From IMG/VR virus record IMGVR_UViG_3300012954_000117, positions 1 through 20,763 of that record: a DNA stretch of 20,763 nt; one strand, given 5' to 3'. Under the pieces are notes generated by a model. The model was not told the origin of the DNA. It ran no database searches and saw only the letters and a list, made by a program, of their open reading frames with translations. Positions 3,650 to 20,763 of this stretch are shown here, piece by piece. Both the position numbers and the translations under genes were made by a program. Each line of letters opens with the position of its first letter. Within the stretch, counting starts at the first letter, position 1. This stretch comes from a virus.

Positions 3650-4012
3650 ATGGTAACCTACATCGGATATAGCACAATAGACAGTATAAGTGGTAGCAAA
3701 ACATTAACAGATGTTAATATTGCCAAACGTGATTTATTAAATCATTTTTACACAAGACGTGGCGAAAGGGTAGGATTTCCTTTATTTGGAAGCATACTGC
3801 CAAATTTAGTCTTTGAACCATTGGATAGTGCAACAGAAAGAGAAGCATTAGATGATGTAAACAAAATTGTTAACAATGATCCACGTTGGCGAGTATTGGA
3901 AACACTGTTGAGTAAACCCGATGATCACACATTAGAAATTAAAGTTAGGTTAGAATACAACGACACAGGAACAGCAGAAGAACTGTTTTTGAGATTTATA
4001 GGTGAAGAATAA
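3650..4012 (+). CDS. 25: gp25-like baseplate wedge subunit
   Basis: This 120-aa protein belongs to the gp25/GPW family, a small, widely conserved wedge component that in contractile systems joins the wedge to the sheath and hub. The family pattern is clear: an N-terminal segment leading to LLNHFYTRRGERVGFPLFGS (the conserved 'T-R-G-R-P-FG' core, residues ~29-48), then a Leu/Phe-Glu-Pro-Leu segment, a helix with EREALDDVNKIVNNDPRW, and terminal strands (HTLEIKVRLEYND). The length is close to T4 gp25 (about 130 aa). The ATG at 3650 fits the family's length but lacks a Shine-Dalgarno sequence; see the late-promoter entry. The stop shares one base with the gp6 start (TAATG at 4010-4014), so the two are probably coupled in translation. 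Confidence 0.93.
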   Translation: MVTYIGYSTIDSISGSKTLTDVNIAKRDLLNHFYTRRGERVGFPLFGSILPNLVFEPLDSATEREALDDVNKIVNNDPRWRVLETLLSKPDDHTLEIKVRLEYNDTGTAEELFLRFIGEE

Positions 4013-7000
4013 TGGCACAAGGCGCAAGACAAGCTAGTTTATTTGCCGCAGAAGATTTTACAGTAGCATATGAAAGTTTTGCTCAAGCAAACTTACAAGC
4101 ATATGATTTTGATACAATCAGAACTGCAATGGTAAATTATATTAGTACAAACTATCCAGAGAATTTTAATGATTATATTAATTCAAGTGAATTTATAGCA
4201 CTTATTGAATTAATGGCATTCCTAGGACATAACCTAGCATTTAGAGCAGATCTTGGTCAAAGAGAAAACTACCTAAGTACAGCAGAACGTAGAGAAAGCG
4301 CCTTGCGTATTGCTGAATTTTTAGGTTATACTCCTACTAGAAATGTTGTTGCAAGTGGTTACTTAAAAATAGATACAGTTGAAACTAATGAACAAGTGTT
4401 TGATTCAAATGGCGTTAGTTTAGCAAATGTTAGCACTCAGTTTGAAGATGCAACAAATCCAACAAGCTATCAAAACTTTTTAACTATTATGAATTCAATA
4501 TTTCAAAGCAGTAGTAAGTTTGGATCTCCTTTTGCTACATCAACTACAGGAACGATTATAAACGAAATTTATAGAACCAATAGTACCAATAATACAGCTA
4601 CAAGAGAATTTACAAATAAAATAAATGGTGCTAGTGCTACATTTAGTTTGTACAGTGCAGGAGTTGACACTGCAACAAACGCACTTATAGAAAAGATTCC
4701 TAATCCTTATGGTGCAGTTGATTTGCTTTATAGAAATGACAACAGTGGATTTGGTTCACCAAACACAGGATTCTTTATTGGATTTAAACAAGGATCTCTA
4801 TCATTTAAAGACTTTGAAATCAACAACGGATTGCCAAATCTTTCAATTGATATCAATGCAGACAATGTAGCCAACGGACAAATTTGGGTACAGAATGTTG
4901 ACGAAGTTGGACAAGTACAAAAAACATGGACAAGAGTTGATAGATTGTTTGGTGCAAGTGCAATGTTCAACGCTAGACAAAATAAAATACGCGACATATA
5001 TTCTGTTAGCAGTAGAGAGAATGACCAAGTTAGTATTGTATTCAGCGATGGTAATTTTGGTAATATTCCAAGGGGAATAATTAGAGTTTGGTACAGAACA
5101 GGACTTAACCAAACATACAGCTTAGTGCCTGATTCATTTAATCAAACTTCATTTAGTATTGATTATATTAGTTCTTCAGGTAACCTGCACACTGCTAAGT
5201 TTAAAGCAAGTTTAAAATCTATCGTTAGCAATGCAAGCGAAAGAGAGTCAGTAGCTAGTATTAAAGCCAATGCTCCTAGATTCTTTGCTACACAAGATAG
5301 AATGATCACAGCAGAAGATTATGCAATTACACCATTGACTGCTAGTGAAAATATAAGAAAAATTAAAAGTATAAACAGAGTACACAGTGGACACAGTAGA
5401 TTTAGAGATATATATGATCCTACAGCAACCTACAGTGATGCAACACAATACAGTGATGACATTTATCTTTATGAACAAGGCACAACAAACAGAAGCGTGG
5501 TAAGTCTACCATCTAGTTTGACTGGTACACAAATATACGACAAGTATGTAAAACCTATGCTTGCTGATCCAGAAATATTTAATTTTTACTACAGCAGACA
5601 AGGTTGGTCTTCTACAACACATGATGCAAAATTTGACTTCAACAACACTAGTGACGGCATTACATTCTTTAATAGTAATGCTACTGAAACAAATGTTTTT
5701 AGATGGAATCAAATTACAAAAGGCAGTGATGGTTGTAGTGGATATTTTACTTACAATAGTATTGTACAACGTGTTGGTGACACAGCTACAAACAGTTTGA
5801 AAAAAGCTGATGTAAACGGACTTGTTGAATTTATTGATGCTCCTTACAAAATGGGATATATCAGTATTGCTACAGTAGTAAATGGAGGTAGTGGATACAC
5901 AACTACACCTACAGTCACTATTACTGGAAAAGGAACTGGAGCAACAGCCGTTTGTACGGTAGCTAATGGTGCAGTTACTAGTGTTTCAATTACAGACAGT
6001 GGCAGTGGATATGATCAAAGCACAAATATTTCAATTACTGGTGGTGGAGGCACAGGTGCTCTTGTCAGAGGCACTATTATAGATGCAAAAACACAATGGG
6101 TAAAAGTTGATAGACTTTATAAAAATGGACTAGGTGATGATAACAGTGCAGGCAATCCAACAGGTATTGACAATACTGGCAAAGGTTCAATAGTTTTAAA
6201 TGCAGTTGTCAGCAACGGAGCAAGAGTAAGAAGATTAGTGCCAAGATTGAGTACAGATTTAGATGCTACAACTAGAACAAATGTTATTAGTAAAATCAAT
6301 AACAAAAATACTTTTGGTTTACGTTACAACGCAAGTTCACAGAAATGGATTATTATTGATAGTGCCAATCTTCCAGCCAATAGCACAACACTTAATTCAG
6401 TTGCAAACTGGAGTTTAGAACATGCAGGTGATGGAAGCAGTACTGGTATTGACAACAGCTGGATCATAAGATTAAATCATGGTACAACAGAATGGGAGAT
6501 GTTGACTAGAAGAACGCAATATGTTATAGGAAGTGCTAACAAATTGAAGTTTACTAATTTAAATTTCAACAACACATTTAGTAGCGAAACAAGTAAACCT
6601 CTCAGAGATAATATAAAAATATTGAAGATTAATCCTAAGAGTGAATCTGATCCTAACCCACTAGGAAAAGATTATAAGTTTAATGCATATGGATACTTTA
6701 CATATGCAGATGGCTATACAGATCCAAACAATATTAGAGTTACACTTGCTGATCCAGACAACGATGGTTATCCAAATGATCCTGAAGCATTCAGCAATAT
6801 TGTGGGTAGTTCGACTATAAAGTTAGGTACAAAAACTGTAGATGGGTTTGACTATACAACAATAGACCCAGACACCGGAACAACAGTTGTAAGTGGAGTT
6901 GGTAATTTACACACACAATACAACAGAATAGCTGACTTGAATTCATTGATTGATCCTAGTACAACTAATATTATTGATACATATGTTCTATTGAACAGTT

Positions 7001-7611
7001 TCAACAATGAGTATAGGAATTGGGCATTACATGATGGTAGGGCAGAAACACAACCAAATCCTCCAACTATAAGTGAACTTACAGATACTTTTCAAAGTTT
7101 AAACACTAAAAAATCTATAAGCGACCAAGTGATTTATAGACCAGTAAAATATAAACTATTGTTTGGAGATCTAGCTAGTGGTGAACTACAAGCAACATTC
7201 AATGTTACAAAAACAAGCAACAGTACAATAAGTGATACAGAAGTCAAGCAGAGAGTAATTAGTCTTATCAATCAATATTTTAACATTGATAATTGGGACT
7301 TTGGAGAAGATTTTTACTTTACTGAAATGGCGGCTTATATTCATAATAACATGATTGGTGAGATAAGTCAAGTAACAATTTCAAGTGTAAGTAATCCAGC
7401 AGATGGTACAAGTTTATTTGAGATTTCAAGCAACAGTGATGAATTATTTTTACCACTAGTGAAACAAAATAACATTTCAGTACAAGGTTCGTCCAATGCT
7501 AACTTGACAACAATAGGCGAGAATCAAACTGGTAATATTACTACAAGTTCAGGAACATCAGGTGGTAGCGGCTCCGGCGGTGGCGGCGGTGGCGGCGGTG
7601 GAGGTTACTAA
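4012..7611 (+). CDS. 6: gp6-like baseplate wedge subunit, enlarged (1199 aa)
   Basis: gp6 forms the ring that ties baseplate wedges together. Residues ~20-115 carry the family's N-terminal block (DFDTIRTAMVNYI, then FIALIELMAFLGHNLAFRAD, then REsALRIAEFLGYTP). Residues ~420-470 carry the RMITAEDYAITPL and INRVHSGHSRFRDIYDP block. A C-terminal block follows at ~1041-1165 (VIYRPVKYKLLFGD, then NQYFNIDNWDFGEDF, then MAAYIHNNMIGEI). T4 gp6 is about 660 aa; the excess lies mainly between ~540 and ~1040. It includes two Gly-Ser-Gly-Tyr repeats (~620-693) and an Asp-rich DPDNDGYPNDPE loop (from ~914) that looks able to bind calcium. The tail is a Gly run (~1183-1198) ending in Tyr. AGGTGA at 4000-4005 sits before the start, and the start overlaps the gp25 stop (TAATG). 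Identity is confident; the function of the insert is unknown. Confidence 0.92.
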   Translation: MAQGARQASLFAAEDFTVAYESFAQANLQAYDFDTIRTAMVNYISTNYPENFNDYINSSEFIALIELMAFLGHNLAFRADLGQRENYLSTAERRESALRIAEFLGYTPTRNVVASGYLKIDTVETNEQVFDSNGVSLANVSTQFEDATNPTSYQNFLTIMNSIFQSSSKFGSPFATSTTGTIINEIYRTNSTNNTATREFTNKINGASATFSLYSAGVDTATNALIEKIPNPYGAVDLLYRNDNSGFGSPNTGFFIGFKQGSLSFKDFEINNGLPNLSIDINADNVANGQIWVQNVDEVGQVQKTWTRVDRLFGASAMFNARQNKIRDIYSVSSRENDQVSIVFSDGNFGNIPRGIIRVWYRTGLNQTYSLVPDSFNQTSFSIDYISSSGNLHTAKFKASLKSIVSNASERESVASIKANAPRFFATQDRMITAEDYAITPLTASENIRKIKSINRVHSGHSRFRDIYDPTATYSDATQYSDDIYLYEQGTTNRSVVSLPSSLTGTQIYDKYVKPMLADPEIFNFYYSRQGWSSTTHDAKFDFNNTSDGITFFNSNATETNVFRWNQITKGSDGCSGYFTYNSIVQRVGDTATNSLKKADVNGLVEFIDAPYKMGYISIATVVNGGSGYTTTPTVTITGKGTGATAVCTVANGAVTSVSITDSGSGYDQSTNISITGGGGTGALVRGTIIDAKTQWVKVDRLYKNGLGDDNSAGNPTGIDNTGKGSIVLNAVVSNGARVRRLVPRLSTDLDATTRTNVISKINNKNTFGLRYNASSQKWIIIDSANLPANSTTLNSVANWSLEHAGDGSSTGIDNSWIIRLNHGTTEWEMLTRRTQYVIGSANKLKFTNLNFNNTFSSETSKPLRDNIKILKINPKSESDPNPLGKDYKFNAYGYFTYADGYTDPNNIRVTLADPDNDGYPNDPEAFSNIVGSSTIKLGTKTVDGFDYTTIDPDTGTTVVSGVGNLHTQYNRIADLNSLIDPSTTNIIDTYVLLNSFNNEYRNWALHDGRAETQPNPPTISELTDTFQSLNTKKSISDQVIYRPVKYKLLFGDLASGELQATFNVTKTSNSTISDTEVKQRVISLINQYFNIDNWDFGEDFYFTEMAAYIHNNMIGEISQVTISSVSNPADGTSLFEISSNSDELFLPLVKQNNISVQGSSNANLTTIGENQTGNITTSSGTSGGSGSGGGGGGGGGGY
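5866..6093 (+). repeat. Two Gly-Ser-Gly-Tyr repeats inside gp6
   Basis: Two adjacent copies of a short beta-rich unit occur at residues ~619-694 of gp6. The first contains VVNGGSGYTTTPTVTITG, then GTGATAVCTVANGAVTSV. The second contains ITDSGSGYDQSTNISITG, then GGGTGALVRGTI. A related copy lies in the giant protein at 12198-12393, and both places share the 14-base string ggtagtggatacac (5887-5900 and 12231-12244). The unit looks like a mobile surface module of phage structural proteins; its ligand is unknown. Confidence 0.8.
7560..7608 (+). repeat. Poly-Gly codon tract ending gp6
   Basis: A run of GGC/GGT codons, broken by a few Ser codons, encodes the Gly-rich tail of gp6. It is a short GC-rich island in an otherwise AT-rich sequence. 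Its last part, GGAGGT (7600-7605), is also a full Shine-Dalgarno sequence for the giant gene that starts at 7611. Confidence 0.9.
7600..7605 (+). promoter_or_regulatory. Strong ribosome binding site of the giant gene
   Basis: GGAGGT lies 5 bases before ATG 7611, the ideal match and spacing for the 16S rRNA tail. It decides the start: the next in-frame ATG, at 7671 (codon 21), has only A/T-rich sequence before it. The Asn/Ser-rich first 20 residues are therefore likely translated. Confidence 0.8.
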
Positions 7612-10600
7612 TGAGTTACCATAACAATAATTCAAATTCTAGCAATTCAAATAACAATAGCAATAATAGTATGGCTAGTGGCGGCGAACGTAGTCCTAAA
7701 ACAAAACTATCACCTAATATATCGAGACCAGGCGAAAGTTTAGAAAAAACAGGCTCTAATAGAGTAACGCAACTTTTACCTTCCATTCTTCAAACAACTG
7801 TAAACAAACAATTTTTTGATTCTACATTTGAACAATTACTTGCTAGTGGTAGTTTAGAAAGTATTAAACATTTTGTTGGAGAAACAACAGGAGATGATGT
7901 TAGAGATGCTGTACCAGCAGTGACTGATAATTATTTGCTGGATAACAGATCCAATGATCCGTATCAGTTTCAACCAGGAATGGTTACAAAGAGTGACGAC
8001 AATGAGATAAGCACAGCACTTGCATATGATGATTTGATTAGAAGTTTTGATTATAATGAAGTTGACACAAACAACCATCATAAGTTTTTAGGTGAACTAG
8101 GATACACATTAGACTCACCAATAAACTATGATATGTTTATTAACTATCACAGATACTATTGGGTCTTAGATGTTCTCCCACCTTGTGAATTACAGTATAC
8201 AAGTATTTTTGACATGGACACTGTTAATGGTGAAACATCATATACAACTCCTGTAATGAAAAATGGCAAAACACTAACACTTGAAAATGGAATGAGAATT
8301 AAACTTGCTCCGCACACTGTGGATAGGTTTACACAAACCAATAGTGCAAATGTAACTTTTACAGCAACAGTGCAAAATGGAGTAAACGATTCGTTGCAGG
8401 TTTATAAAAATAATGTAAGACAAACTGTTACAACAGATTATACATACAACGCAACAACTGGTGTTGTTACTTTTACAACTGCGCCAGCACTAAACGAAGA
8501 AGTAGAAATACACACATACTATTCTTATAGCACATCAGGAACTTATGAAAATGATGCAATTCTCATAGTTGATGGAGTTGGAGATCCAAATGGTATAGTG
8601 CTAACAACACAATTTAGTCCAGGACAATACGAAGGCAAGCAAGGCAAAAGAGTATGGTGTAATATTACAACATACAGTGCTCAAGAGCCAAGTGGATTTG
8701 ATGCGGATCAATACAGTTTTGATTTTAGAAAATTTGATCTCAGAGAACATAGAATGACCACTAGAGATTATACTGTAGAGCAAAGACAGTCGCCTGATCA
8801 AAGTGCATGGAGTAGAAGTAATCTTTGGGTACACGAAGAAACAATCAAAAACGTTTTAATTTACCAAGCTGTAACAGATGATGTATATACGTTAGATCGT
8901 TATAGAGCAGTAAGACCAATCATTGAATACAAAACAAATCTAGAGAAATATAACTTTGGTAAAAAACATGTTGCAAATATTGACCATGCATTGGAAAGTG
9001 CTATAGACCCAGCAACTGATATAGTTGGTCAAACAAGTTATAACGTATTTCCAATTGGTTTTAATACTGAATGGCAAATAGGAAAAGGATACGACTTTGG
9101 AGAAAAAGTTAAAGTAACAAGTGGTGCAAGTCCTAATCTTGTAATTACATATTGGGAATGTGTAAAAGCACATGGCGAAGAACGCAAACCAACACATGGT
9201 GAAAACAGAGAATTCTGGGAACAAGTTACTCCTGTAGAATTAGAAAACAATGATTTAATTATATTTTTCAACACAACCAACAGTGCGTACACCAATAAAA
9301 TATTTACAGCTACCGGAGTTGGTACAAGCATAGTACTAACAGAAACATATAACTTTGATGGTAGCAATGGTGCAACGCAATTAAACGCTGGTGAAAAAGT
9401 AGTTATTCTCAATGGTTATAATGTTACTGATAAAGTTTTAACTGGTGAAACTGTTTCAAACAGAGAAGCTCCACTAAGTGGTAGTGAAATATATTTTGAT
9501 GGTACTACATGGATACAAAGTCAACAGAAAGAACATAGAAGTCAAGGTATGAAAGTACAGCTATATGACGTAAACCTAACAAAGTTAGACGATCAAGCTC
9601 AGTATCCGGAAAGCACTTTCAACGGTTCAACTATTTTTGATTTTGTACACAGTACTACCAGTGCTTATGATGATGCACTTGGATTTAACGCTGAATATGT
9701 TGATTATGGAAATACTCCAGGTTTGAATTTTGATGCACAGCTATTGAGTAAAAAATCCACATATGTGCAAAAAAGTAATGATGGTAGTAAAAATCAAATC
9801 AAAAACATATCAGGTCAATACTATTACAAAGATTTTGTAACTGGCAGATATTATAATGGATGGACAGCAGATAGATTCGGACAAGTTGTTAAAAAACGCA
9901 TTAGAAAAGTTATTACTGATGCTACAAAACCTTTGCTAGTAGATGTTGGACATTCAAAAACAGTTTCGGATAGATACTACAATATATTCCAAGAAAGCGG
10001 AACACTCGCAGTAAGCACACAACCAACAGCATTGGTTGACGATGGTAGGGTTACGAGAGTTGGCGGTAAGTTGCCAACATTGTTTTTCTTCAATGATAAC
10101 ACCTATACAATCTCAACACACTTTCCTCAAGCAGAAATAGAGTTTGTGAACATGGATGGATCTCCAGTTGGTGCTGGTATAACAAGAACAGCAGGCAGTG
10201 GAAATACATTTAGTATAGTAATTGCAACACCTACTGTCAACAGTATAAAATACAGATTAGTATCTGATCCAGCAAAGTTTGGTGTAATATTCTTTACTAC
10301 AAATGCAAATGAAACAAACGTTGAAGTAAGGAAAAACGGTGATATATTTACAAACTTTACACATGTAAATGATATTGTAACAATTAACAGTGGGCTAATA
10401 TTAGACGACATTTATGAATTTGTGTTCAAATCAGATACAAATTATAGTGCTACAGGAGAAGGTAATTTTGAAGTTGCTAGCACACAACTTAGTAATCCAC
10501 TTAATCAAAACTTTGAAAAAGTCAGCTATGGAGATTTAATCAGACACTTGACTTCACAAATGAAAGCAAATCCGTTGTTCAGCGGTTCTTTGCATGGCAC

Positions 10601-13600
10601 AAACAATTATAGAAACATTGTGCAAACACATGATACAGGTGGATTAATAAAACAACAACCATACAGTACGGAACTAGCAAATCAATTATTAGTGGATAAC
10701 AATACAAATCCATATAGTGCTTTGCAATTTACAAACTCCAATTACAATGAATTTATTAACAAATTTAAAAATAAAATTAAACAGCTTCATAATAGTACAG
10801 AAATAAATGTGCCAGTATACCAACTAGTTGATAAAACACTTGAAGCATTAAACATTGGAAAAAATAGTGATCATGCTTTTGCAGGCAGTCAAATGGCAAT
10901 GTATAGAGATTATAAAAGTTTTGATGGTAGTTGGGTACTCAATCAAACACCTACATTCAACTTGCCTGAAGAAGTAAACACCTATGATGATACCTTCAAT
11001 CATGTGCAAGTATGGATACAGATTCCAGATAGCAATGGTGAACATACTTGGAGAGGACTGATTAAAGATGTAGATTACACCATGGATGATTACAGTGTGA
11101 CAGTTACACTAAGTGGTATAACCTTTCCAGGCAGTGGTAAAAACAATATACATATTAGATGGTACAAAAGAGGAAGTGTAAGTTTTGTACCTTACAGTGC
11201 AGTCAAACTAGGAATGATTAAACCTTTTGTTCCTGAATTAAGAAGTGACTACAGCAAAGATAGTACTGGTACAGCAACAGACAATGTTATTATTGGACAC
11301 GATGGTAATGTACATGTACGCAACGGGACAGAATTATACGCTAGAACAGTAGTAGGATTTGATCCTATAGATGCAGGGTTGTGGGATCTAGAATTGAGAA
11401 TATACAACAACCTCAATAGAAATCTTGACAATGTTGTAAATCAAAGCACTTACTCACCCAATGCACACAGACCAGCAGTGTACACATGGAATGAAGTAAA
11501 CAACACAATTAGAAGTGAATTTAACAAGTACAAGTCTGCTAACAATATTGTGGCGCTCAATAGTACAACATACTTTGATGGTGCTGATAAATTTACTTGG
11601 AACTATAGCAGTGTGTCGCCTAACATTGGTGGTTGGAGAGGTATATATCATTACTTCTTTAGAACAGACAGACCACATACTCATCCTTGGGAAATGCTAG
11701 GATTCAACAAAAAACCTACTTGGTGGGACGCAAACTACAGTTGGACAGATGCTGTTAAACGTGCGTCATTGTTACTAGCACTTGAATTTGGAAAAACAAG
11801 TGATCCAAGCGGTAGTGATACATTTGATGTTGACTACAGTTATAAAAATTATGATTGGCAAAACAACACATTGGTTACGCTGTTGGGAGCATTAAATGAT
11901 CCAGTTGCCGCAGGTGTATGTTCTACACCAACATTGGAAGATAGACAAAAAGACTTTGTGTTTGGAGACTGGGGACCTGTTGAAGCAGAATGGCGTAGAA
12001 CAAGTCAAGGAAAGATTGCAAACATAATTTCATTTATGAGAACAAGACCACTTATTGCACTTAACAACTACTTTAGAACACAAAGAAGAATAGTTAAAAA
12101 TCTTGCAGGTTATGATATACCTTACATAATGGATATTGCTTACAAAGGATTAAACAGTTGGAGCACCACAGCGTTGACAGGATCAAGCAATATAGGAAAA
12201 ATTATTGAAAGTGTCAATATTATCAATCCAGGTAGTGGATACACTAGTACACCTAATGTTACTGTTACAGATAATTTTGGTAGTGGCGGGTCAGTCACAG
12301 TCAAGGTAGAAAATGGAGCTATTGTGGGAGCTAAAGTAAACTTTCAAGGTGTACAATATTACAATAGACCAACGCTAGATTTAAGTACAGGTAATGCAGT
12401 ATTAGATCCTATACTAGCTGATGATACTAAAACATATTTTGATGGACTAGCAAATGCAATTATTGAATTTGGTAACACATACGGAACAGATGCTGATGCT
12501 TTAGCAAAAAGATTTAACAATATAAGTTTTAGACCTATAATTAAAGCAGGAGGCTTTGTAAACAAAAATCAACAATTTATTTTGGAGAGCAGTCAAGATA
12601 AAGGTAGAGTGTTTGTACCAGAAGAGAATGTTGATACAATTTTATACACTAGTAAACCTTCACAAGAATATTTCTTTGGCGGTATCAAAGTCAACAAGAC
12701 TGCAAATGGTTACACAATAAATGGCTATGACAATAGCCAAGCATTTTTCAATTACTACAAGCCAAAAACAAACACGCCTGGCATTACTGTAAGTTTTGAA
12801 GGAGTAATAACTGTACAGGTTTTGAGATACAAAGAATATGATACGAACTTATCACAAATGGATTACAACACTGAAGTAAGATCAATTCAAGAAGTATACG
12901 ACTTTATCAATGGATATGGTTATTACTTGAATACACTAGGATTTAACCAACAATGGAGATCATCTGCTAGTAACTTTGTAACTTGGGCAGTAGGTTCAAG
13001 CACCACAGAATTACCATTGATTCCAGACGCATCTAGAGTTACAGTGAATGATGGACAAGATGGTTACTTTGATAATATTGATAAAAAATATGACGGAGTC
13101 TACAATATAATAGACGCCAACGGAAATCAAATTAGAGCAACTGATATTATTATTGATAGAAAAAGTATGGAGCCTGACAGTGAAACACTATTTCAAGTTA
13201 AAAATGAAGAAACACAAATTTATGGAATAAGACTTTACAAAGTGCAACTTGAACACATATTCATTTTTGATAATGTTACAAATTTTGATGATGCTATACA
13301 TGATCCAACTATTTTCCTTGCACACAAAAGAATAATTTGGAGAGGAAGTAGAACAAAAAATTGGAATGGTAAATTATATTCACCGGGCTATATTGTTGAT
13401 GGTGATAAAATACTTCCAAACTTTGATACTACAGCTAGAGAAGTAGACTTGTATTATGGAAAAACTAAAACTCTAGGCAACAAACAGATTAGTGATATAG
13501 CAAGATTCAATGCAGGATACAATAGACCAGAATGGAGTCATAAACTTGACTTAGATGATGATGCAGTATATGAATTTGTAAAAGGAAGTTACAAATACAG

Positions 13601-16600
13601 AGGTACAGATCATGCTCTAAATGCATTTATGAGAAACAGTAGTTTGTTTGATGGAAATGCTACAGCAGAACTATTAGAAAACTGGGCAATAAGAACAGCT
13701 GACTTTGGTGATACAAGAAAAAGAGAAACACTAGAATTTCAAATTACACCTGACTTGCTAACAACAAGTCCTCAGCCTATTAGATTTACAGATGAATTAA
13801 AATATGATGTGCTAAGTGACATTGTAATTGACATAGACAGTATAAGTCCATTAAAAGTATACGATAGTGGTACAACTTTTAACACAAGACCAGTTAACAA
13901 TTACAAAGCTACTAGTGATGAATTATTTGATAGTGATCTCAACAAAGCAGGATTACCATTATTGTCAGAAAGTGACTACAGAGTAATAAACAAAGAAGAC
14001 TTTACTCAGTTTCCAACTGAAGTCAAATCTGCATATGACCACAGCGGTGATTGGCAAGATATTGGACAGTGGGACAGTACTATTAGCTACAAATTTAATG
14101 AGAAGGTACTTTACAATGGTAGAAGTTGGGCAATGCTTGACGAAGATGGAAGCAGTGGATTCAGTACAGCAAACAATCCAATTGATGTCTTAGGATCAAA
14201 TCAACTTCCAGTAATACCTAGCACTGGACAAACTTTGATACTTGATGGTAACACTATTACTTTATCAAAAACAGCAACAAGTCAAACTAGAAATACAATT
14301 ACTGTGATAGGCAGTCAAAACATAGCCAGTGCAAATGTTGTAACACATGGTTCTACAGTAATACTAGGCGAAAGTACAACAAGCAATACAACAATTACTT
14401 TTAGCAATAGTGTAGTTACTACAACCTTTAATGATATAACAAAGACAGGAACAACTATTAATCCAACTATACAAGGTAGTGCAACTGCAACATTGATTTT
14501 TGATGGTAACACAGTCAGCTTTAATGATCCGCAAAATATAACAACAAACATTACAGCCCAGCAAGCATACGAAAACGCTTTTAACACAAGTTGGATACAA
14601 AATCAATCCAATATATCAAGTACAGCTACAACTAGAATTAGTAGAATTGAAGGTTTGAGAGCGGCATATGTTGCGGCTAATAGTGCGTCAGCGTGGACAA
14701 CTTGGATAACAACTTACTACACAAATGACGCAGGTCTTAACATAGATCATTTGCGTACTCTTATACTTGCAGGAGGCAGTACACAACAACCTGCAGAATT
14801 CTTGTTAGATCAAGACTTGATTATTATTAATAATATAAAAGGTACAAGCTATACAGGCACACAAGTTATATCCGGAGCACAAACTGTTGGAGCCAGTGAT
14901 ATCACTGATTCTCAAGGCGCAATGAATAATGGTACACATACAGGTGATATTGCAACATATCTTAAAGATAGTGCAAATGCATCAACTACATTCGCAACAG
15001 GAACAATAGTAGCAACTACAACTACACCTGGATTTAAATTGTATTCACTTGCTGATATAGTGCAAGAAATAAATGATGCAGGCATAAGCAATATTACAGC
15101 AAGTGCAGATCCAAGTAGTAGACTAAGCATTACTAAAACTACAAATGATAACACAACATCTTTTAGTTTAAGTATTAGTGTAGGCACAGAAAATGCTCAA
15201 GTTGGATTTAACACTGCTACTGAAACAATTAATAGTCAAGGTTCTAATACACAAACTACACCAGAACTTTCAATACAGCAGGTCATTGATCAAATCAATA
15301 ACGCAGGAGTTAGCGGAGTAAGTGCCCAAAGAGCAACGTCAAACAATGCATTGTTACAGATTAATTCAACAAATGATAATTTGTTTGTTGGTGCTGGTAC
15401 AGCTAACAGTGTAATTGGATTGCCTACTGGACTTATTCCAGCTACAGTCACAACTGCAACTGCTCCTGTAGGGTTAAGCATTACTGATATTGTTGAAAAA
15501 ATTAATAATGCAGGCATTACTGGAGTTACAGCGACTAACCAATCCAATAAAGTAAAACTGACAAGCACTAATAGCACACTTGTAATTGGTGCTGGAACAG
15601 CCAATGCTACAATAGGATTTGTTGCTACGACTTTGAGTGCAACGCAATCACAAGTAAGTTCAGTGTTCAATGCATTGGTTGATGCAAATGGAAATCCAGT
15701 TTTCAAAGAACAAAGCAACGATCCAAATATTTTCAACATATGGGTAGCAGATGACAGTGAATTTGGAAACTATAATCTAGGATATCAAGTTTATCAAACC
15801 ATGGACTTTGGTATGTACACTTATGATATTTGTGCAGGCACAGTAAGTGCTGATGAAGCACAGATAAAAGTAAAAAGACAAACTGGTGATAAACAATCAC
15901 ATAACCTGTCAGTAGGAGACTACATACTGGTTAGAGGCAGTGATAGCGTACCTAGTATTGATGGCATACACAGAGTAACAAGAGTAGATAATGATACATC
16001 AATATTCTACATAGATGAGTTTATCGAAACAAACGGACATGTAGGCAACATTTATCCTTTGAGAAAAGTTAGATTTGGTAGCTACGCTGAACTAGAAGCA
16101 AACAGACAAGACAAAGTAAATGATATTTTCAAATACAACTTTGCAGATATAAGACAAAACAACACAAGCAATCCAATTTATGCTTTTGTAGATGATGATG
16201 GTACAGGTTCAAGTGCAGTGTACAGTTGGAAAGGTACTTGGAGTGAAAACAATGGTCATGTAGGCGAATGGTTGCTTGTTAGAAAAGGTATTAAGCAAGC
16301 AAGAAATGATCTCATTGAGAATGTAAAACTTTACAATGCAGATACACAAACTACTATTACAAACCTTGAGATATTTGATCCAGCAAAAGGCATACTGTTT
16401 GGGTTTATTGAAAATGAAATAGATTACAAAATTACAAATGATATTGCAAACTATAATTTCAATAACATAGATGGACAAGTTGAAAACGTAGAAGCCTGGG
16501 GAAGAGAATATATAGGAAGACGTTGGTGGAACACAAGCACCGCAGTCTATTTGGATTATGAGCAAGGTTCAATTGATTATCAACAAAATAATTGGGGTAG

Positions 16601-19600
16601 ACTAGCAGATGGTGCAAGTATTGACATTTATGAGTGGACAGCAAGTCCTGTGCTTCCGGAACAATGGGCAGACTTGGTAGCTTCAAAAGCACAAATAGAT
16701 GGCAATGAAGCTAGTGGAGAAGCCTATAGTAATATAATCAATGGACAGACTGTTTACAATTGGACAGAAGAAAACTATTACAATGATAAGCGTAAACAAA
16801 CTGAAACAACTTATTACTATTGGGTAAAAAATAAAACTTCTAGTATAAGGAAAAGTAATTACAACATACTTCAAGTATCTCAGATAATTAACAATCCTAC
16901 TAACTTCAATCTTGCTTGGGCGGCTCAAACAGGCAGTGATACAATACTACTAGCAAACATACGTCCGTTTATATCACCAAGCACAGTAGCACAAGTAAAT
17001 CTAAAAGTCACAAGCAATGCTAGTCCAATGCAGGAATGGTTGATGTTAGCAGAAGGTGATCCAAATGTTACAGTACCAGAATATCTGCATATTAAAATGC
17101 GTGACAGTTTAGCTGGCTTCAACAGATTTAGTATTGACAAACCATTTACAACTTGGTCAGCAACAACAGTATACAACAAAGACGAAGTAGTAAAATATGA
17201 CGACAAATATTACATTAGTTTGATTGCAAATAATCTAAATGATCAACCTGATTTAGACACAAACCAAGAAGAGTGGAGCAGAATATATGATTTCAATTTA
17301 ATTGAAAGCACACAAAGTGATGACATTAGTATATGGAGAGGACAGCCTGTACCAGATTTAAAACTGCACAAATACAACAGATATGGTCATCAGATCAGAC
17401 CTAGACAAAGTTTGTTCAGAGATTTAAAAGAAGCTAGACAAAACTTTGTTCATAGTGTAAACTCATTGTTAAGTGAAGTAAATGTCATTGATGAAATCAA
17501 TAATTGGGAAAATGCATTCAGCACAACCTTTGTAGAAGGAACAGTAACATACAGAGTAAAAGACTATGTCAATCTCATTGACTGGCATCTAGCTGGATTC
17601 AATCCTAACACAGTTGCTGATTTGGTATACAACACCAAACAAGACTATATTGATGCAGGTGAACCAACTGATGATGGTACATATGTGTTGATTAAGAGTA
17701 CAAGCCCAGGAGCAGATATTGATAGAAGTGAAATGTATCACTTTACAGGAGGCACAGACGTACTAGTTTTCAAAGAAAAAGCTACAGTACAAGTTAGTGA
17801 GGAAATGTGGAATCAAGCAAAGTTTGGACATGGATATGATACAATTGGCTTTGATGTTACTCCTTTTGATAGTTGTAGCGACAACGTTATTGGTAAACTT
17901 ATGGATCTGCTTAGAACAGAAATATTCATAGGCAGACATCATGTTATGTATAATAAAATGTGGTTTAAACTGTTGTACAGTGCAATATTACAAAACACAG
18001 CAAGTGATTTTGCATTCAAAACAACTTACACACATCTAGGAGTTAAGAGACCATTGCTTACTGCAAAACAAAATTATCAAGAATACAATATACAAACTGT
18101 TGAAGATTTTGTAAAAGATATTAAACCATTCCATACAAAACTACTAAGCAGTATGGAAAGCAATACTTTTGGTGAAGCAACTAACATAGAGATAGACGAA
18201 GAACCTAGGACTGGTGTTATTACTCTCAAGTATGCAGATCACAGCGTAAGAGAATGGGAAGGCGATACTGAATTACTTGGAGGTCAATTTGGTGTACCGC
18301 ACAATACAAATTTAGATGAATCTCAATTCACAACTGCACAAGCTAGTTTTACTGATATCTACGATGGCAATGTGTTTATACAACCAGTGCAAGAAGGTTG
18401 GGGCGAAGAACTTGTTCCTACAGACTTTACAGAGAATATCAACATGCTAGTACAAACAAACGAAAGCGGTGCTATTACAGTTACAGCAGGTCCAACTTAC
18501 AGTGTGAATGCACAAGAAACTGGGCCTAGAGGAATTACATTTAACAACGATGGAACAAAAATGTTTATCACTGGTACAACTGGTGATGATGTAAATGAAT
18601 ATACTCTTTCAAATGGATTTGATTTATCATCAACTGTTACTTTTGTAGACAGTTATGCAGTTACAGAATGTCCAAATCCAACCGCAGTAAAATTTAACGC
18701 TAACGGAACACAAATGTTTGTTACTGGCGTAGGCAATAGTAATGTACATGAATATGCATTGACAACTGGCTTTGATGTTTCAACTGCTGGCTTTACCCAA
18801 ACACTAGTAACTACAGTTGACAGTGATAACTTTGGACTTGATTTTAAACCTGATGGCACTAAAATGTGGATTACAGGTGATCAAAATAACAAAATATATG
18901 AATTCAATTTAAGCAGTGCATTTGATATTTCAACTGCAACATTCAATCAAGATTTGACTATGACTGCTATAGACGTAGAACCATTTGGTATAGAGTGGAG
19001 CCCCAATGGTAAAAGATTGTTTGTAGTAGGAACACGTGGTAATGGTGTAGATGAATGGAGAGCAAGCACAGCCTTTGATATTTCAACGCTAACACATGTA
19101 GGATTTTATAGTATTGGTGGTAATCCTTCCGGTATACATTTTAGTCCAGACGGATTAAACATGTTCATAACTGGTAATGTAAGTGATTTAGTTAAATCCT
19201 ATACACTGTCAGATCCTTATAGATTGATAGTAAACGATGGTATTACTGCTGGACCAGATACTAGAACATTTAGAATGATGCAATATCAACCAATGAATAT
19301 TCAAATTAGTAATGCTATTGTAGATGCACAAAAAACAACATTGACTGCGAATATAACTGAGTTTGATACAACAATACCAGTTACAGACGCTAGTATATTA
19401 GATGATCCTAATACAATTTCAGCAGTGCCTGGAGTAATTTATATTGGATCAGAAAGAATAGAATACCAAGCTATAGAGCAAAATAACTTGTTGTTCTGTA
19501 CAAGAGGTACATTAGGTACAAGTATCAAAGCACACACAAGTGGTGATACAGTGGTTAACAGTGGCCCAACAACAGAAATTCCAATAGTAGATGAGTTCTC

Positions 19601-19715
19601 ACATTATGGTGATGGACTACGCCTTGCATACAATGATAGTGGCATAAGCCTATCAGCACCAGGAACTACGCCCGAACATGCTTTCATTAGAAATGCAGGC
19701 AAAGGAACGATATAA
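7611..19715 (+). CDS. Giant multi-module virion structural protein (4034 aa) in the gp7 position of the baseplate wedge cluster
   Basis: One uninterrupted frame of 12.1 kb follows gp6 with a TAATG overlap. T4 has gp7 (about 1030 aa) here, so a wedge/baseplate role is inferred from position. Modules in order: Asn/Ser-rich start (1-20); a conserved-looking block QLLPSILQTTVNKQFFDSTF with FEQLLASGSLE (~54-85); beta-sandwich module (241-306); carbohydrate-binding-like W/Y segment (~485-541); DRPHTHPWEMLGF...KPTWW block (~1351-1373); Gly-Ser-Gly-Tyr module (1530-1594); a second W/Y segment (~2153-2186); Thr/Asn-rich strands with two LDGNT-type repeats (~2209-2301); three hook-IN-like motifs (2477-2680); a third W/Y segment (~3180-3229); EDFVKDIKPFHTKLL (~3497-3511); five beta-propeller-like repeats (3627-3868); and a GVIYIGSERIEY...RGTLGT module (3939-3985). 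I recall similar very large proteins next to gp6 in marine T4-like phages, but cannot name a family. A tail-fibre or adsorption role for the outer modules is possible. There is no signal peptide or membrane segment. Confidence 0.75.
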   Translation: MSYHNNNSNSSNSNNNSNNSMASGGERSPKTKLSPNISRPGESLEKTGSNRVTQLLPSILQTTVNKQFFDSTFEQLLASGSLESIKHFVGETTGDDVRDAVPAVTDNYLLDNRSNDPYQFQPGMVTKSDDNEISTALAYDDLIRSFDYNEVDTNNHHKFLGELGYTLDSPINYDMFINYHRYYWVLDVLPPCELQYTSIFDMDTVNGETSYTTPVMKNGKTLTLENGMRIKLAPHTVDRFTQTNSANVTFTATVQNGVNDSLQVYKNNVRQTVTTDYTYNATTGVVTFTTAPALNEEVEIHTYYSYSTSGTYENDAILIVDGVGDPNGIVLTTQFSPGQYEGKQGKRVWCNITTYSAQEPSGFDADQYSFDFRKFDLREHRMTTRDYTVEQRQSPDQSAWSRSNLWVHEETIKNVLIYQAVTDDVYTLDRYRAVRPIIEYKTNLEKYNFGKKHVANIDHALESAIDPATDIVGQTSYNVFPIGFNTEWQIGKGYDFGEKVKVTSGASPNLVITYWECVKAHGEERKPTHGENREFWEQVTPVELENNDLIIFFNTTNSAYTNKIFTATGVGTSIVLTETYNFDGSNGATQLNAGEKVVILNGYNVTDKVLTGETVSNREAPLSGSEIYFDGTTWIQSQQKEHRSQGMKVQLYDVNLTKLDDQAQYPESTFNGSTIFDFVHSTTSAYDDALGFNAEYVDYGNTPGLNFDAQLLSKKSTYVQKSNDGSKNQIKNISGQYYYKDFVTGRYYNGWTADRFGQVVKKRIRKVITDATKPLLVDVGHSKTVSDRYYNIFQESGTLAVSTQPTALVDDGRVTRVGGKLPTLFFFNDNTYTISTHFPQAEIEFVNMDGSPVGAGITRTAGSGNTFSIVIATPTVNSIKYRLVSDPAKFGVIFFTTNANETNVEVRKNGDIFTNFTHVNDIVTINSGLILDDIYEFVFKSDTNYSATGEGNFEVASTQLSNPLNQNFEKVSYGDLIRHLTSQMKANPLFSGSLHGTNNYRNIVQTHDTGGLIKQQPYSTELANQLLVDNNTNPYSALQFTNSNYNEFINKFKNKIKQLHNSTEINVPVYQLVDKTLEALNIGKNSDHAFAGSQMAMYRDYKSFDGSWVLNQTPTFNLPEEVNTYDDTFNHVQVWIQIPDSNGEHTWRGLIKDVDYTMDDYSVTVTLSGITFPGSGKNNIHIRWYKRGSVSFVPYSAVKLGMIKPFVPELRSDYSKDSTGTATDNVIIGHDGNVHVRNGTELYARTVVGFDPIDAGLWDLELRIYNNLNRNLDNVVNQSTYSPNAHRPAVYTWNEVNNTIRSEFNKYKSANNIVALNSTTYFDGADKFTWNYSSVSPNIGGWRGIYHYFFRTDRPHTHPWEMLGFNKKPTWWDANYSWTDAVKRASLLLALEFGKTSDPSGSDTFDVDYSYKNYDWQNNTLVTLLGALNDPVAAGVCSTPTLEDRQKDFVFGDWGPVEAEWRRTSQGKIANIISFMRTRPLIALNNYFRTQRRIVKNLAGYDIPYIMDIAYKGLNSWSTTALTGSSNIGKIIESVNIINPGSGYTSTPNVTVTDNFGSGGSVTVKVENGAIVGAKVNFQGVQYYNRPTLDLSTGNAVLDPILADDTKTYFDGLANAIIEFGNTYGTDADALAKRFNNISFRPIIKAGGFVNKNQQFILESSQDKGRVFVPEENVDTILYTSKPSQEYFFGGIKVNKTANGYTINGYDNSQAFFNYYKPKTNTPGITVSFEGVITVQVLRYKEYDTNLSQMDYNTEVRSIQEVYDFINGYGYYLNTLGFNQQWRSSASNFVTWAVGSSTTELPLIPDASRVTVNDGQDGYFDNIDKKYDGVYNIIDANGNQIRATDIIIDRKSMEPDSETLFQVKNEETQIYGIRLYKVQLEHIFIFDNVTNFDDAIHDPTIFLAHKRIIWRGSRTKNWNGKLYSPGYIVDGDKILPNFDTTAREVDLYYGKTKTLGNKQISDIARFNAGYNRPEWSHKLDLDDDAVYEFVKGSYKYRGTDHALNAFMRNSSLFDGNATAELLENWAIRTADFGDTRKRETLEFQITPDLLTTSPQPIRFTDELKYDVLSDIVIDIDSISPLKVYDSGTTFNTRPVNNYKATSDELFDSDLNKAGLPLLSESDYRVINKEDFTQFPTEVKSAYDHSGDWQDIGQWDSTISYKFNEKVLYNGRSWAMLDEDGSSGFSTANNPIDVLGSNQLPVIPSTGQTLILDGNTITLSKTATSQTRNTITVIGSQNIASANVVTHGSTVILGESTTSNTTITFSNSVVTTTFNDITKTGTTINPTIQGSATATLIFDGNTVSFNDPQNITTNITAQQAYENAFNTSWIQNQSNISSTATTRISRIEGLRAAYVAANSASAWTTWITTYYTNDAGLNIDHLRTLILAGGSTQQPAEFLLDQDLIIINNIKGTSYTGTQVISGAQTVGASDITDSQGAMNNGTHTGDIATYLKDSANASTTFATGTIVATTTTPGFKLYSLADIVQEINDAGISNITASADPSSRLSITKTTNDNTTSFSLSISVGTENAQVGFNTATETINSQGSNTQTTPELSIQQVIDQINNAGVSGVSAQRATSNNALLQINSTNDNLFVGAGTANSVIGLPTGLIPATVTTATAPVGLSITDIVEKINNAGITGVTATNQSNKVKLTSTNSTLVIGAGTANATIGFVATTLSATQSQVSSVFNALVDANGNPVFKEQSNDPNIFNIWVADDSEFGNYNLGYQVYQTMDFGMYTYDICAGTVSADEAQIKVKRQTGDKQSHNLSVGDYILVRGSDSVPSIDGIHRVTRVDNDTSIFYIDEFIETNGHVGNIYPLRKVRFGSYAELEANRQDKVNDIFKYNFADIRQNNTSNPIYAFVDDDGTGSSAVYSWKGTWSENNGHVGEWLLVRKGIKQARNDLIENVKLYNADTQTTITNLEIFDPAKGILFGFIENEIDYKITNDIANYNFNNIDGQVENVEAWGREYIGRRWWNTSTAVYLDYEQGSIDYQQNNWGRLADGASIDIYEWTASPVLPEQWADLVASKAQIDGNEASGEAYSNIINGQTVYNWTEENYYNDKRKQTETTYYYWVKNKTSSIRKSNYNILQVSQIINNPTNFNLAWAAQTGSDTILLANIRPFISPSTVAQVNLKVTSNASPMQEWLMLAEGDPNVTVPEYLHIKMRDSLAGFNRFSIDKPFTTWSATTVYNKDEVVKYDDKYYISLIANNLNDQPDLDTNQEEWSRIYDFNLIESTQSDDISIWRGQPVPDLKLHKYNRYGHQIRPRQSLFRDLKEARQNFVHSVNSLLSEVNVIDEINNWENAFSTTFVEGTVTYRVKDYVNLIDWHLAGFNPNTVADLVYNTKQDYIDAGEPTDDGTYVLIKSTSPGADIDRSEMYHFTGGTDVLVFKEKATVQVSEEMWNQAKFGHGYDTIGFDVTPFDSCSDNVIGKLMDLLRTEIFIGRHHVMYNKMWFKLLYSAILQNTASDFAFKTTYTHLGVKRPLLTAKQNYQEYNIQTVEDFVKDIKPFHTKLLSSMESNTFGEATNIEIDEEPRTGVITLKYADHSVREWEGDTELLGGQFGVPHNTNLDESQFTTAQASFTDIYDGNVFIQPVQEGWGEELVPTDFTENINMLVQTNESGAITVTAGPTYSVNAQETGPRGITFNNDGTKMFITGTTGDDVNEYTLSNGFDLSSTVTFVDSYAVTECPNPTAVKFNANGTQMFVTGVGNSNVHEYALTTGFDVSTAGFTQTLVTTVDSDNFGLDFKPDGTKMWITGDQNNKIYEFNLSSAFDISTATFNQDLTMTAIDVEPFGIEWSPNGKRLFVVGTRGNGVDEWRASTAFDISTLTHVGFYSIGGNPSGIHFSPDGLNMFITGNVSDLVKSYTLSDPYRLIVNDGITAGPDTRTFRMMQYQPMNIQISNAIVDAQKTTLTANITEFDTTIPVTDASILDDPNTISAVPGVIYIGSERIEYQAIEQNNLLFCTRGTLGTSIKAHTSGDTVVNSGPTTEIPIVDEFSHYGDGLRLAYNDSGISLSAPGTTPEHAFIRNAGKGTI
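7620..7673 (+). repeat. Asn/Ser-codon low-complexity tract
   Basis: The first codons of the giant gene are almost only AAT/AAC and AGT/AGC/TCT, giving an Asn/Ser-rich head of about 20 residues. It directly follows the poly-Gly tail of gp6, so the gene junction is flanked by low complexity on both sides. It is probably a flexible leader. Confidence 0.8.
12198..12393 (+). repeat. Gly-Ser-Gly-Tyr module in the giant protein
   Basis: Residues 1530-1594 (NPGSGYTSTPNVTVTD, then GSVTVKVENGAIVGAKV) match the repeat unit found twice in gp6 at 5866-6093. The order of GSGY, Thr-Pro, paired strands and 'NGAI/NGAV' is the same. It suggests exchange or duplication of a surface module between two wedge-cluster genes. 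Confidence 0.75.
14235..14512 (+). repeat. LDGNT-type repeat pair in Thr/Asn-rich strands
   Basis: Two 20-base stretches, ttgatacttgatggtaacac (14235-14254) and ttgatttttgatggtaacac (14493-14512), are 18/20 identical. They encode LILDGNTITL and LIFDGNTVSF. The segment between them is rich in Thr, Ser and Asn and reads as repeated beta strands. It leads, through about 175 residues with no recognised motif, to the hook-IN-like array. Confidence 0.6.
15039..15650 (+). repeat. Three tandem flagellar hook-IN-like motifs
   Basis: Three units start at residues ~2477, ~2553 and ~2622 of the giant protein: SLADIVQEINDAGISNITA, LSIQQVIDQINNAGVSGVSA and LSITDIVEKINNAGITGVTA. Each continues with a strand ('RLSITKT', 'LLQINST', 'KVKLTST'); the second and third then carry 'VGAGTAN..IG' or 'IGAGTAN..IG'. 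This 'I..IN.AG..GVTA' plus 'IGAGTAN' pattern is that of the hook IN motif known from FliD/FlgK-type flagellar cap and hook proteins. The resemblance is read by eye; the copies are diverged at DNA level. Confidence 0.7.
18489..19215 (+). repeat. Five-repeat beta-propeller-like array near the giant protein's C-terminus
   Basis: Five units of about 50 residues begin with PRGITFNNDGTKMFITG (P3639), PTAVKFNANGTQMFVTG (3690), NFGLDFKPDGTKMWITG (3740), PFGIEWSPNGKRLFVVG (3791) and PSGIHFSPDGLNMFITG (3839). Most continue with 'V.EY.L...FD.ST'. The spacing (51, 50, 51, 48) and the 'P.GI.F..DG..MFITG' core are those of YncE/SMP-30/WD-like propeller blades. Five blades, or six with a closing blade made of flanking strands, is the likely fold. 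It could bind a receptor or a glycan. Confidence 0.82.
19425..19566 (+). other. RGTLGT module region in the giant protein
   Basis: Residues 3939-3985 (PGVIYIGSERIEYQAI, then CTRGTLGTSIKAHTSGD) match a short beta-rich pattern I have seen in marine phage structural proteins: strand, 'IG.E.I.Y', strand, 'RG..GT...H..G..V'. Its function is unknown. It lies between the propeller-like array and the final ~50 residues. Confidence 0.55.
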
Positions 19716-19718: not shown

Positions 19719-19726
19719 CATTAAAT

Positions 19727-19734
19727 GGAAAGAG
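19727..19734 (+). promoter_or_regulatory. Ribosome binding site deciding the start at 19737
   Basis: GGAAAGAG lies 2 bases (6 from its GGAA part) before the ATG at 19737. It begins inside the upstream in-frame ATG (19725-19727), which itself has no Shine-Dalgarno sequence. This favours 19737 as the main start. Confidence 0.55.
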
Positions 19735-19736
19735 CT

Positions 19737-20339
19737 ATGAGTTTAGACAAGATTAACGATACATCACTAATAGGCATTGAGGGACACATTAAGATATGGG
19801 ATCCACAGTCTGGTGAAATTCTAGTCAAAAGAAGAAATGCTATTAATTATGAAAACATGAGTATTGCTCTTGCAAGTTTACTTGCAAACGAAGCTGGTAA
19901 CACGGGTTCACATCAAATAGCTACAATGAGATTTGGAAACGGTGGTACAACTATAGACGGACTAGGAAATGTTACATATAAAGCAACCAATACCAACAGT
20001 GCAAGTGGTGCATTATATAACCAAACATTTAGCCAAGCAGTAGATGAAGCTGTAAGTGGAAGTGCATTAAACGGCACAGAAATCAGTCATACTGCACCAA
20101 ATACATTTACAGATGTTATTACAACATGCACATTAGATTATGGAAGTGTTAGTGGACAAGATAGCACAGATACAGCTACTAGCATGGATGGAACATATGT
20201 ATTTGACGAGCTGGCAATATACAGTGGCAACAACGATTTGTTGACACATGTAGTCTTTCACCCAGTGCAAAAAAGTGAAAACAGAAAAATACAAGTAATT
20301 TATACATTAAGAATTAGGTCAAGTTTCGCAGACTTGTAA
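19737..20339 (+). CDS. Virion structural protein, ~200 aa, probable baseplate or fibre-associated
   Basis: From ATG 19737 the product is 200 aa; from ATG 19725 it is 204 aa (four extra residues, MERA). I choose 19737 for the GGAAAGAG before it. The protein reads as beta-rich: LIGIEGHIKIWDPQSGEILV (~11-30), a helix with NYENMSIALASLLANE, a Gly/Thr/Asn-rich middle (~65-150), and a closing strand set with VFDELAIYSGNNDLLTHVVF then HPVQKSENRKIQVIYTLRI. That final 'FDELG.Y...LLTHV.FHPV.KS' pattern is familiar from uncharacterised structural proteins of marine T4-like phages. Position behind a late promoter and next to a fibre-like gene supports a virion role. It is not similar by eye to T4 gp8, gp9 or gp10. 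The specific function is unknown. Confidence 0.72.
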   Translation: MSLDKINDTSLIGIEGHIKIWDPQSGEILVKRRNAINYENMSIALASLLANEAGNTGSHQIATMRFGNGGTTIDGLGNVTYKATNTNSASGALYNQTFSQAVDEAVSGSALNGTEISHTAPNTFTDVITTCTLDYGSVSGQDSTDTATSMDGTYVFDELAIYSGNNDLLTHVVFHPVQKSENRKIQVIYTLRIRSSFADL

Positions 20340-20349
20340 GGAATAAGAT

Positions 20350-20763
20350 ATGCCATATACAATAGATTATAGTCAAAGTAGTAAAACAGCAATAGTTGTG
20401 AATGACGGTACAATAGATACTAGTACGAGTATTGGACTTATAGGTAAAAACTATACTCGTTTTGGTGAAATACTAAATGAAAACATGTTGCACATGTTGG
20501 AAAATTTTGCTAATACTAATGCTCCAAGCAATCCAAGTGAAGGGCAACTTTGGTATGATACAGCAAATAGTCAACTTAAAATATACGACAACGGTATTTG
20601 GAGTACAATTTTAAGTGGCGCTGGTACAACTAAAATTGAATTTAGAAACAGAAAAGACACAGGCGGTAATTACCACAAAACAATAGAATTAATAGTTGAT
20701 TCAAATATTGTCCATATCACTACAGATGATACCACAGCTTGGACACCTCACAATGATGAAAAA
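20350..20763 (+). CDS. Fibre-like virion structural protein, N-terminal part (3' partial)
   Basis: The frame opens at ATG 20350, 10 bases after the previous stop, with AAGGA (20338-20342) as a good ribosome binding site. It runs without a stop to the window end (138 codons). Residues ~28-83 hold a pattern I recognise from tail-fibre-like structural proteins of marine T4-like phages: IGLIGKNYTRFGEILNENML, then LENFANTNAPSNPSEGQLWY, then DTANSQLKIYDNGIW. The 'P..GQLWYDT....L.IYDG..W' part is a common fibre strand motif. The rest is beta-rich (IELIVDSNIVHITTDD). It is probably an attachment or collar-type domain followed by a longer shaft beyond the window. An alternative is a baseplate-attached structural protein with no receptor role. 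Confidence 0.75.
   Translation, partial: MPYTIDYSQSSKTAIVVNDGTIDTSTSIGLIGKNYTRFGEILNENMLHMLENFANTNAPSNPSEGQLWYDTANSQLKIYDNGIWSTILSGAGTTKIEFRNRKDTGGNYHKTIELIVDSNIVHITTDDTTAWTPHNDEK

Follow-up and report, generated by a model that had tools for sequence, protein, structure and literature searches.

A 4034-residue protein encoded directly after gp6 is a member of the giant virion protein family of jumbo myophages, with plausible but unproven homology to gp7

The window, by which we mean the whole analysed stretch of 20,763 bases, is an entire IMG/VR record and evidently a genome fragment. The giant gene at 7611..19715 (+) encodes a virion/baseplate-region protein of 4034 aa and represents, in the window, PHROG 10938, the giant virion protein known from RaK2-like jumbo myophages and related phages. 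This family of giant baseplate-region proteins is widespread among large T4-related phages and already catalogued, and the window's member is ordinary for its kind. We favour, with a probability of roughly 0.6, the reading that it is a gp7-position wedge protein present in one copy per wedge, which binds gp6 and carries inserted beta domains as docking and contact sites.

Results

The giant gene and its neighbours

The frame starts with ATG and comprises 4034 codons without an internal stop. The TAA of the gp6-like ORF shares its final A with the ATG of the giant (TAATG junction), and this junction is also found in all eight near relatives compared (8/8). With 12,105 of 20,763 bases (58%) the giant occupies more than half of the window, and at 4034 versus 1032 residues it is 3.9-fold longer than T4 gp7. 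In these respects the first-pass annotation, which had described a single open frame starting by overlap with gp6 and about four times as long as T4 gp7, is confirmed, and the frame is coding. The profile PHROG 10938 (‘virion structural protein’, 3324 positions) matches the protein in four stretches (E 5.7e-230). Due to this match, the blocks common with six isolates and 92 further ORFs of the same family, we regard the giant as a real gene.

T4-type baseplate genes are located next to it on the plus strand. These code for a gp5-like baseplate hub protein (1313..2722, phrog_13211 E 3.3e-13), a gp25-like baseplate wedge protein (3650..4012, phrog_43 E 1.1e-11; Pfam GPW_gp25 E 4.4e-5, which is below the cut-off) and a gp6-like baseplate wedge protein (4012..7611, phrog_10646 E 2.7e-259, phrog_219 E 6.7e-24). 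The giant is followed by a conserved partner gene for a protein of ~200 aa (204 aa here; 19725..20339, +), assigned by profile match to PHROG 11259, and by the start of a tail-fibre-type gene (20350..20763, +, PHROG 15511/14394) that runs off the window. In relatives, too, PHROG 11259 and then fibre-type genes lie downstream of the giant. With regard to this last gene, two relatives exhibit a Collar and a gp53-like C-terminal domain, and tail-fibre PHROGs are found in relatives.

Some further observations concern the surroundings. The gp6 of the window is likewise enlarged (1199 aa). Its residues ~599-708 match phrog_460/phrog_1922, and S-PM2p084 also matches phrog_460; the element in question is a small beta repeat of the GSGY type, which baseplate proteins seem to share. 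The C-terminal part of the 5’-open ORF (851-1300) contains an HxxGxAxD-like pattern, which we take to be the look of an M15-type peptidase; Pfam lists no domain for this part at E ≤ 0.1. A near-palindrome of 24 bases is located within the giant gene at 8652-8675 (minus-strand self match, 92%).

The giant family follows gp6

A tblastn search with residues 1601-3333 of the giant identified relatives in 60 records of isolate phages; with gp6 the number was 61. All of them are less than 60% identical. The protein encoded directly after gp6 has 3323 aa in 121Q, 3340 aa in CBB, 3313 aa in XacN1, 4449 aa in Atu_ph07, 3857 aa in PA5oct and 3771 aa in Vibrio phage 2.275, and the gap between both genes in these six RaK2-like or related jumbo phages ranges from -1 to 91 bases. 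Hence the giant follows gp6 in six of the seven isolate jumbo phages examined. The exception is Salicola phage SCTP-2, where a giant of 3807 aa (127770-139193, minus strand) is ~90 kb away from gp6 (231230-234955, plus strand), yet is kept together as a unit with a PHROG 11259-type protein and a fibre-type gene. This unit (L235:12986-26489; gp6 at L234:15001-18726) is preceded by a 3096-aa protein.

A conserved-block search of viral contigs revealed at least 546 confirmed relatives among at least 599 candidate stretches, 80 of which were kept for further analysis. We obtained 93 ORFs of the giant family with ≥ 1200 aa including the window, 63 of them complete with 2991-5067 aa (two contigs are counted twice in these numbers). 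Seven of the 92 ORFs outside the window are cut at the 5’ end; in 84 of the remaining 85, gp6 is found within 300 bases upstream, 43 times with the same 1-base overlap. The sole exception (L053) is an ORF starting 62 bases from its contig end. The joining of wedge position and fibre-type modules noted in the first-pass annotation stands, but the protein is not exceptional, since giants follow gp6 in 6/7 isolates and 84/85 contig relatives.

Domain anatomy

Blocks common with the isolates cover residues ~20-250, 380-470, 610-740, 920-1100, 1190-1505, 1630-2120, 2886-3310 and 3316-3520. Residues 2120-2886 show hardly any match to the isolates.

Three kinds of fibre-type modules had been suggested for the chain, namely carbohydrate-binding-like, propeller-like and hook-IN-like. 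The propeller is the one that passes Pfam cut-offs: a lactonase-type beta-propeller cassette comprises residues 3626-3877 (18486..19241, +), with Lactonase at 26.9 bits (cut-off 21.7) and SGL at 27.1 bits (cut-off 26.3). It is present or absent in frame among relatives, occurring in 5 of 99 aligned giants, the window included, and missing as one block from a relative (L011) that is 87% identical over residues 26-3621. Similar propellers are found elsewhere, in roseophages, S-SKS1 and an uncultured 484-kb phage, whose record LR756508 has nine places matching the propeller. CBM_5_12-like motifs at 14067..14132 (+, E 4.7e-4, 20.6 bits) and 17151..17225 (+, E 2.9e-4, 21.3 bits) stay below the cut-off of 26.2 bits. 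For the hook-IN-like domain Pfam lists nothing in residues 2461-2695 at a limit of E 10, whereby the HMMER filters drop most matches above E ~0.1 despite this limit.

The AlphaFold2 model of residues 26-1205 (pLDDT 83, pTM 0.77) consists mostly of beta domains. Residues ~233-304 (8307..8522, +) are predicted to adopt a tail-fibre-anchor fold; VIA-align superimposes them on LME-1 (9efk_AE) with Z 10.7 and rmsd 1.4, and on T7 gp17 (7boz_b) with Z 9.0 and rmsd 2.4, with 66 aligned residues each. A second model was built for a 1200-residue piece of a compact relative, L063 (pLDDT 77, pTM 0.58). It contains a barrel resembling endosialidase tail spikes (Z 10.0) and equally E1-FCCH domains (Z up to 11.5), so that this type of barrel is known from the model of the relative and not from the window's own giant. 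Altogether, Foldseek and VIA on the two models indicate fibre-anchor, cupredoxin-like and E1-FCCH/endosialidase-type barrel domains. The fold-search rows 9f4b_FA and 9f4a_AM, of 607 and 654 residues, represent chains from the baseplate region of a Klebsiella phage KP1 variant. The top rows from BFVD include the Atu_ph07 giant, which is of the same family; the other names are mostly uncharacterised or absent. PDB sequence searches with the whole giant and three alignments gave best E values of 0.6, 1.6, none and 0.19.

Comparison with gp7

The first-pass annotation placed the giant in the gp7 slot. As a statement on position this holds, as the gene lies directly after gp6. Homology to gp7 was not supported by profiles: no Pfam gp7 domain matches the giant or the jumbo proteins, no gp7 profile matches the giant in the same PHROG scan that finds gp6 and gp25, and hhalign of the giant family against seven T4-type gp7s gave no match (Prob 0.1). 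The gp7 profile phrog_964 was found in none of six jumbo genomes; it was found in both T4-type controls, but S-PM2 was missed too. The gp6 profile phrog_219 detected gp6 in 6/6 jumbo genomes. Since its genome search missed the window's own gp6, which hmmscan finds, negatives of this search are soft. A search for P2 gpI (Tail_P2_I) in jumbo proteins or genomes yielded nothing and is worthless here because T4 and S-PM2 were likewise missed. Structure comparison of both models returned no row named gp7 among the best 50 rows of each list, which says little because single domains fill the lists; moreover, the fold searches barely cover the region of the KGT motif described below. Two further gp7 motifs scored without clear signal, the N-terminal helix motif with 13.9 forward versus 20.8 reversed (22-row profile with the T4 row mis-anchored) and the HPxGF motif with 15.5 forward versus 13.5 reversed (10-row profile). 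Matches to phrog_4406, which comprises the gp7-slot proteins of cyanophages, and to phrog_438, from one of 54 members each, were ascribed to the GSGY-type beta repeat and not counted as support.

The place most like the cyanophage gp7 core is a KGT motif with the stretch following it (residues ~1993-2030; 13587..13700, +). We divided the giant family into 65 overlapping blocks and scanned each in forward and reversed orientation. Against a set of cyanophage and pelagiphage gp7s the KGT site was the best forward block with 27.0 (overlapping block 25.8), compared to 15.2 for the next unrelated forward block and 16.4 for the best reversed control. A smaller mixed gp7 set gave 23.7 for the site, 15.9 for the next block and 16.6 for the reversed control. 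With T4-type gp7 alone the best forward block (24.8; reversed 22.0) was located elsewhere and the KGT site fell outside the best six, although the only listed match of the A5 alignment was in the right place, at gp7 positions 728-745 (Prob 0.2). When T4-type rows were added to the larger set, the KGT site scored highest of the forward blocks (24.1), yet one of the reversed controls reached 29.6. Among single sequences, 14 of the 15 top forward matches fell on the KGT motif, the best with 4.9 bits and thus below the best reversed match (6.7 bits). The hhalign probabilities of the site against the sets containing cyanophages amount to 15-31% when the A5 alignment is used and to 6-26% when blocks are scanned. 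In the model of L063 the motif is flanked by two predicted helices (residues 213-226 and 230-238 of the modelled piece) with a local pLDDT of ~65-74.

As a control, the cyanophage and pelagiphage gp7-slot proteins, pooled into one set, match the KG(T/I) motif of T4 gp7 with an hhalign Prob of 96 (P 4.5e-9), and gp7-slot giants of P-SSM2 (5195 aa) and S-SM2 (4156 aa) are annotated as gp7. Post-gp6 proteins with the T4 gp7 KGT motif were observed in S-PM2 (L034:7073-16219) and at L115, L116, L119 and L120. A pelagimyophage paper (PMC7029224) states that pelagi- and cyanomyophages lack gp7 and that VrlC appears to take its place. Contrary to this we argue, from the motif match, that gp7 is probably present next to gp6 in cyanophages and pelagiphages. 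For the window's giant the resemblance at the KGT site is below significance: the site leads the cyanophage scans, yet the probabilities are low and controls rival it. Hence gp7 homology is plausible at the sequence level but unproven.

gp8 and gp10

It had also been proposed that one gene may replace gp8 and perhaps gp10 in addition to gp7. With PHROGs at E ≤ 1 no gp7, gp8 or gp10 profile was found in the window's giant, and in PA5oct the C-terminal region of gp10 is encoded by a separate gene three genes downstream of the giant (E 2.2e-17). A replacement of gp10 is thus not supported. In six jumbo genomes, T4-type and cyanophage-type gp8 profiles detected no separate gp8 gene; loss, divergence and absorption are all compatible with this result. 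S-PM2 possesses a separate gp8 despite its gp7-slot protein of 3048 aa. The cyanophage gp8 profile phrog_438 has six matches in Atu_ph07 (best E 1.8e-8), and all of them fall inside the giant, the sole result that could be taken for an absorption of gp8 parts. They cover profile positions 185-273 only, and because other S-PM2 giants match the same stretch we read it as a probable shared beta repeat.

Counterparts in virions

Counterparts of the giant in other phages are shown to be virion components. CBB_236 is listed in virion mass spectrometry of CBB with 21 unique peptides and 7.72% coverage (PMC5259590). Gp245 of phAPEC6 (381.88 kDa) was detected in virions with 17 peptides (7.6%); it is listed beside the baseplate wedge protein gp244, and we take it as a counterpart by size and neighbour (PMC7247149). 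The published map of the phAPEC6 tail has a resolution of ~25 Å. ORF361 of RsoM2USA (2541 aa) adjoins gp6, has a CBB structural protein as best match and is ‘most likely’ assigned by the authors to a gel band > 288 kDa (PMC8504454). The sequence record of PA5oct gp355 carries an ESI-MS/MS note. For Atu_ph07, 131 virion proteins are reported, mostly clustered, with a cluster of CDS 170-215 that spans gp180 (PMC6102473). The virion data on the counterparts speak against a wholesale cleavage of the giant while leaving room for cleavage.

Discussion

The giant gene lies between gp6, which it directly follows, and the genes for a conserved ~200-aa protein and a fibre-type protein. We infer that the giant acts as the gp7-position wedge protein, with one copy per wedge and six per virion, and that it would be bound to two gp6 chains via its conserved core. 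The inserted beta domains, i.e. the fibre-anchor-like domain, the CBM-like motifs and the exchangeable propeller, would project from the baseplate rim, where fibres may dock onto them and where they may mediate a weak first contact with the cell surface. In a related contractile system, the part resembling gp7 is described as binding fibres and as a hotspot of re-engineering (PMC8894135). It is possible, albeit doubtful, that the giant is even a true but exploded gp7, in which inserts push the KGT core to residue ~2000 and which combines a wedge arm and a host-contact skirt, while closely related phages gain or lose a propeller as a cassette. In T4, the KGT core follows the N-terminal helix motif at a distance of ~60-110 residues.

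A rather unlikely explanation, which nevertheless deserves weight, is that the position after gp6 was taken over by a platform at the baseplate rim or for fibre anchoring that has no relation to gp7. The true gp7 would then be lost or represented by another gene, e.g. the ~200-aa PHROG 11259 protein or a part of the enlarged gp6. The missing gp7 profile match is in line with this explanation, as are fold matches to fibre anchors, to barrels of the tail-spike type and to generic beta domains, and the unit of giant, PHROG 11259 and fibre-type gene in SCTP-2 that stays together far from gp6. It has difficulty with the near-universal adjacency to gp6 (84/85) and with the KGT site, which among all forward blocks of the chain matches cyanophage gp7 best.

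We consider it very improbable that one chain replaces gp7, gp8 and gp10 together, as suggested earlier. The failure of the profiles to find a separate gp8 in six jumbo genomes, in each of which gp6 is detected by its profile, and the position of all phrog_438 matches of Atu_ph07 within the giant would fit. However, these matches are limited to positions 185-273 and recur in other S-PM2 giants, the window's chain matches neither a gp8 nor a gp10 profile, PA5oct has its separate gp10 C-terminal gene, the downstream genes are themselves fibre-type, and S-PM2 keeps a gp8 beside its own gp7-slot giant. The least credible reading is that the ORF arose by chimeric assembly or that its product is cleaved into several virion proteins. 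Length alone and the low coverage of counterparts in mass spectrometry (7-8%) point in this direction. Against it stand 62 other complete contig ORFs of 2991-5067 aa (two contigs counted twice) together with six in named isolates, as well as the > 288 kDa band to which RsoM2USA ORF361 is ‘most likely’ assigned (PMC8504454); chimeric assembly was rejected.

Very large virion proteins of this kind are encoded in 60 records of isolate phages and in viral contig stretches numbering in the hundreds. If the giants are gp7, thousands of residues with exchangeable surface-binding domains would have been built onto the conserved core of the T4 baseplate as their chassis, which would have a bearing on host-range evolution in jumbo phages. 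The open-access literature, a scope with subscription journals and bioRxiv preprints mostly outside it, yielded in its accessible text no paper assigning the giant to gp7; the CBB paper refers to it as a structural protein (PMC5259590) and the phAPEC6 paper as a hypothetical protein (PMC7247149).

Comparison with known systems

The giant resembles T4 gp7 (1032 aa) in gene position and overlap with gp6. It differs by showing no profile match and one short motif of weak similarity, and T4 gp7 has only about a quarter of its length. With the N-terminal tail-fibre anchor of T7 gp17 it shares a predicted fold, here as a single domain within a wedge-slot protein.

The cyanophage gp7-slot giants (P-SSM2, S-SM2, Syn33 with 6376 aa, S-PM2p084 with 3048 aa) are likewise of giant size and encoded directly after gp6, and small beta repeats are common to both. 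In contrast to the weak motif of the window's family, the gp7-slot proteins of cyanophages and pelagiphages exhibit a clear gp7 KGT motif.

Closest are the PHROG 10938 giants of isolates, i.e. 121Q gp582, CBB_236, PA5oct gp355 and Atu_ph07 gp180, which agree with the window's giant in profile, place after gp6, size class and blocks. Compared to the isolate giants of PHROG 10938, the window's protein is 23-44% identical per block and stands apart by its propeller and by a middle part (2120-2886) that is little shared.
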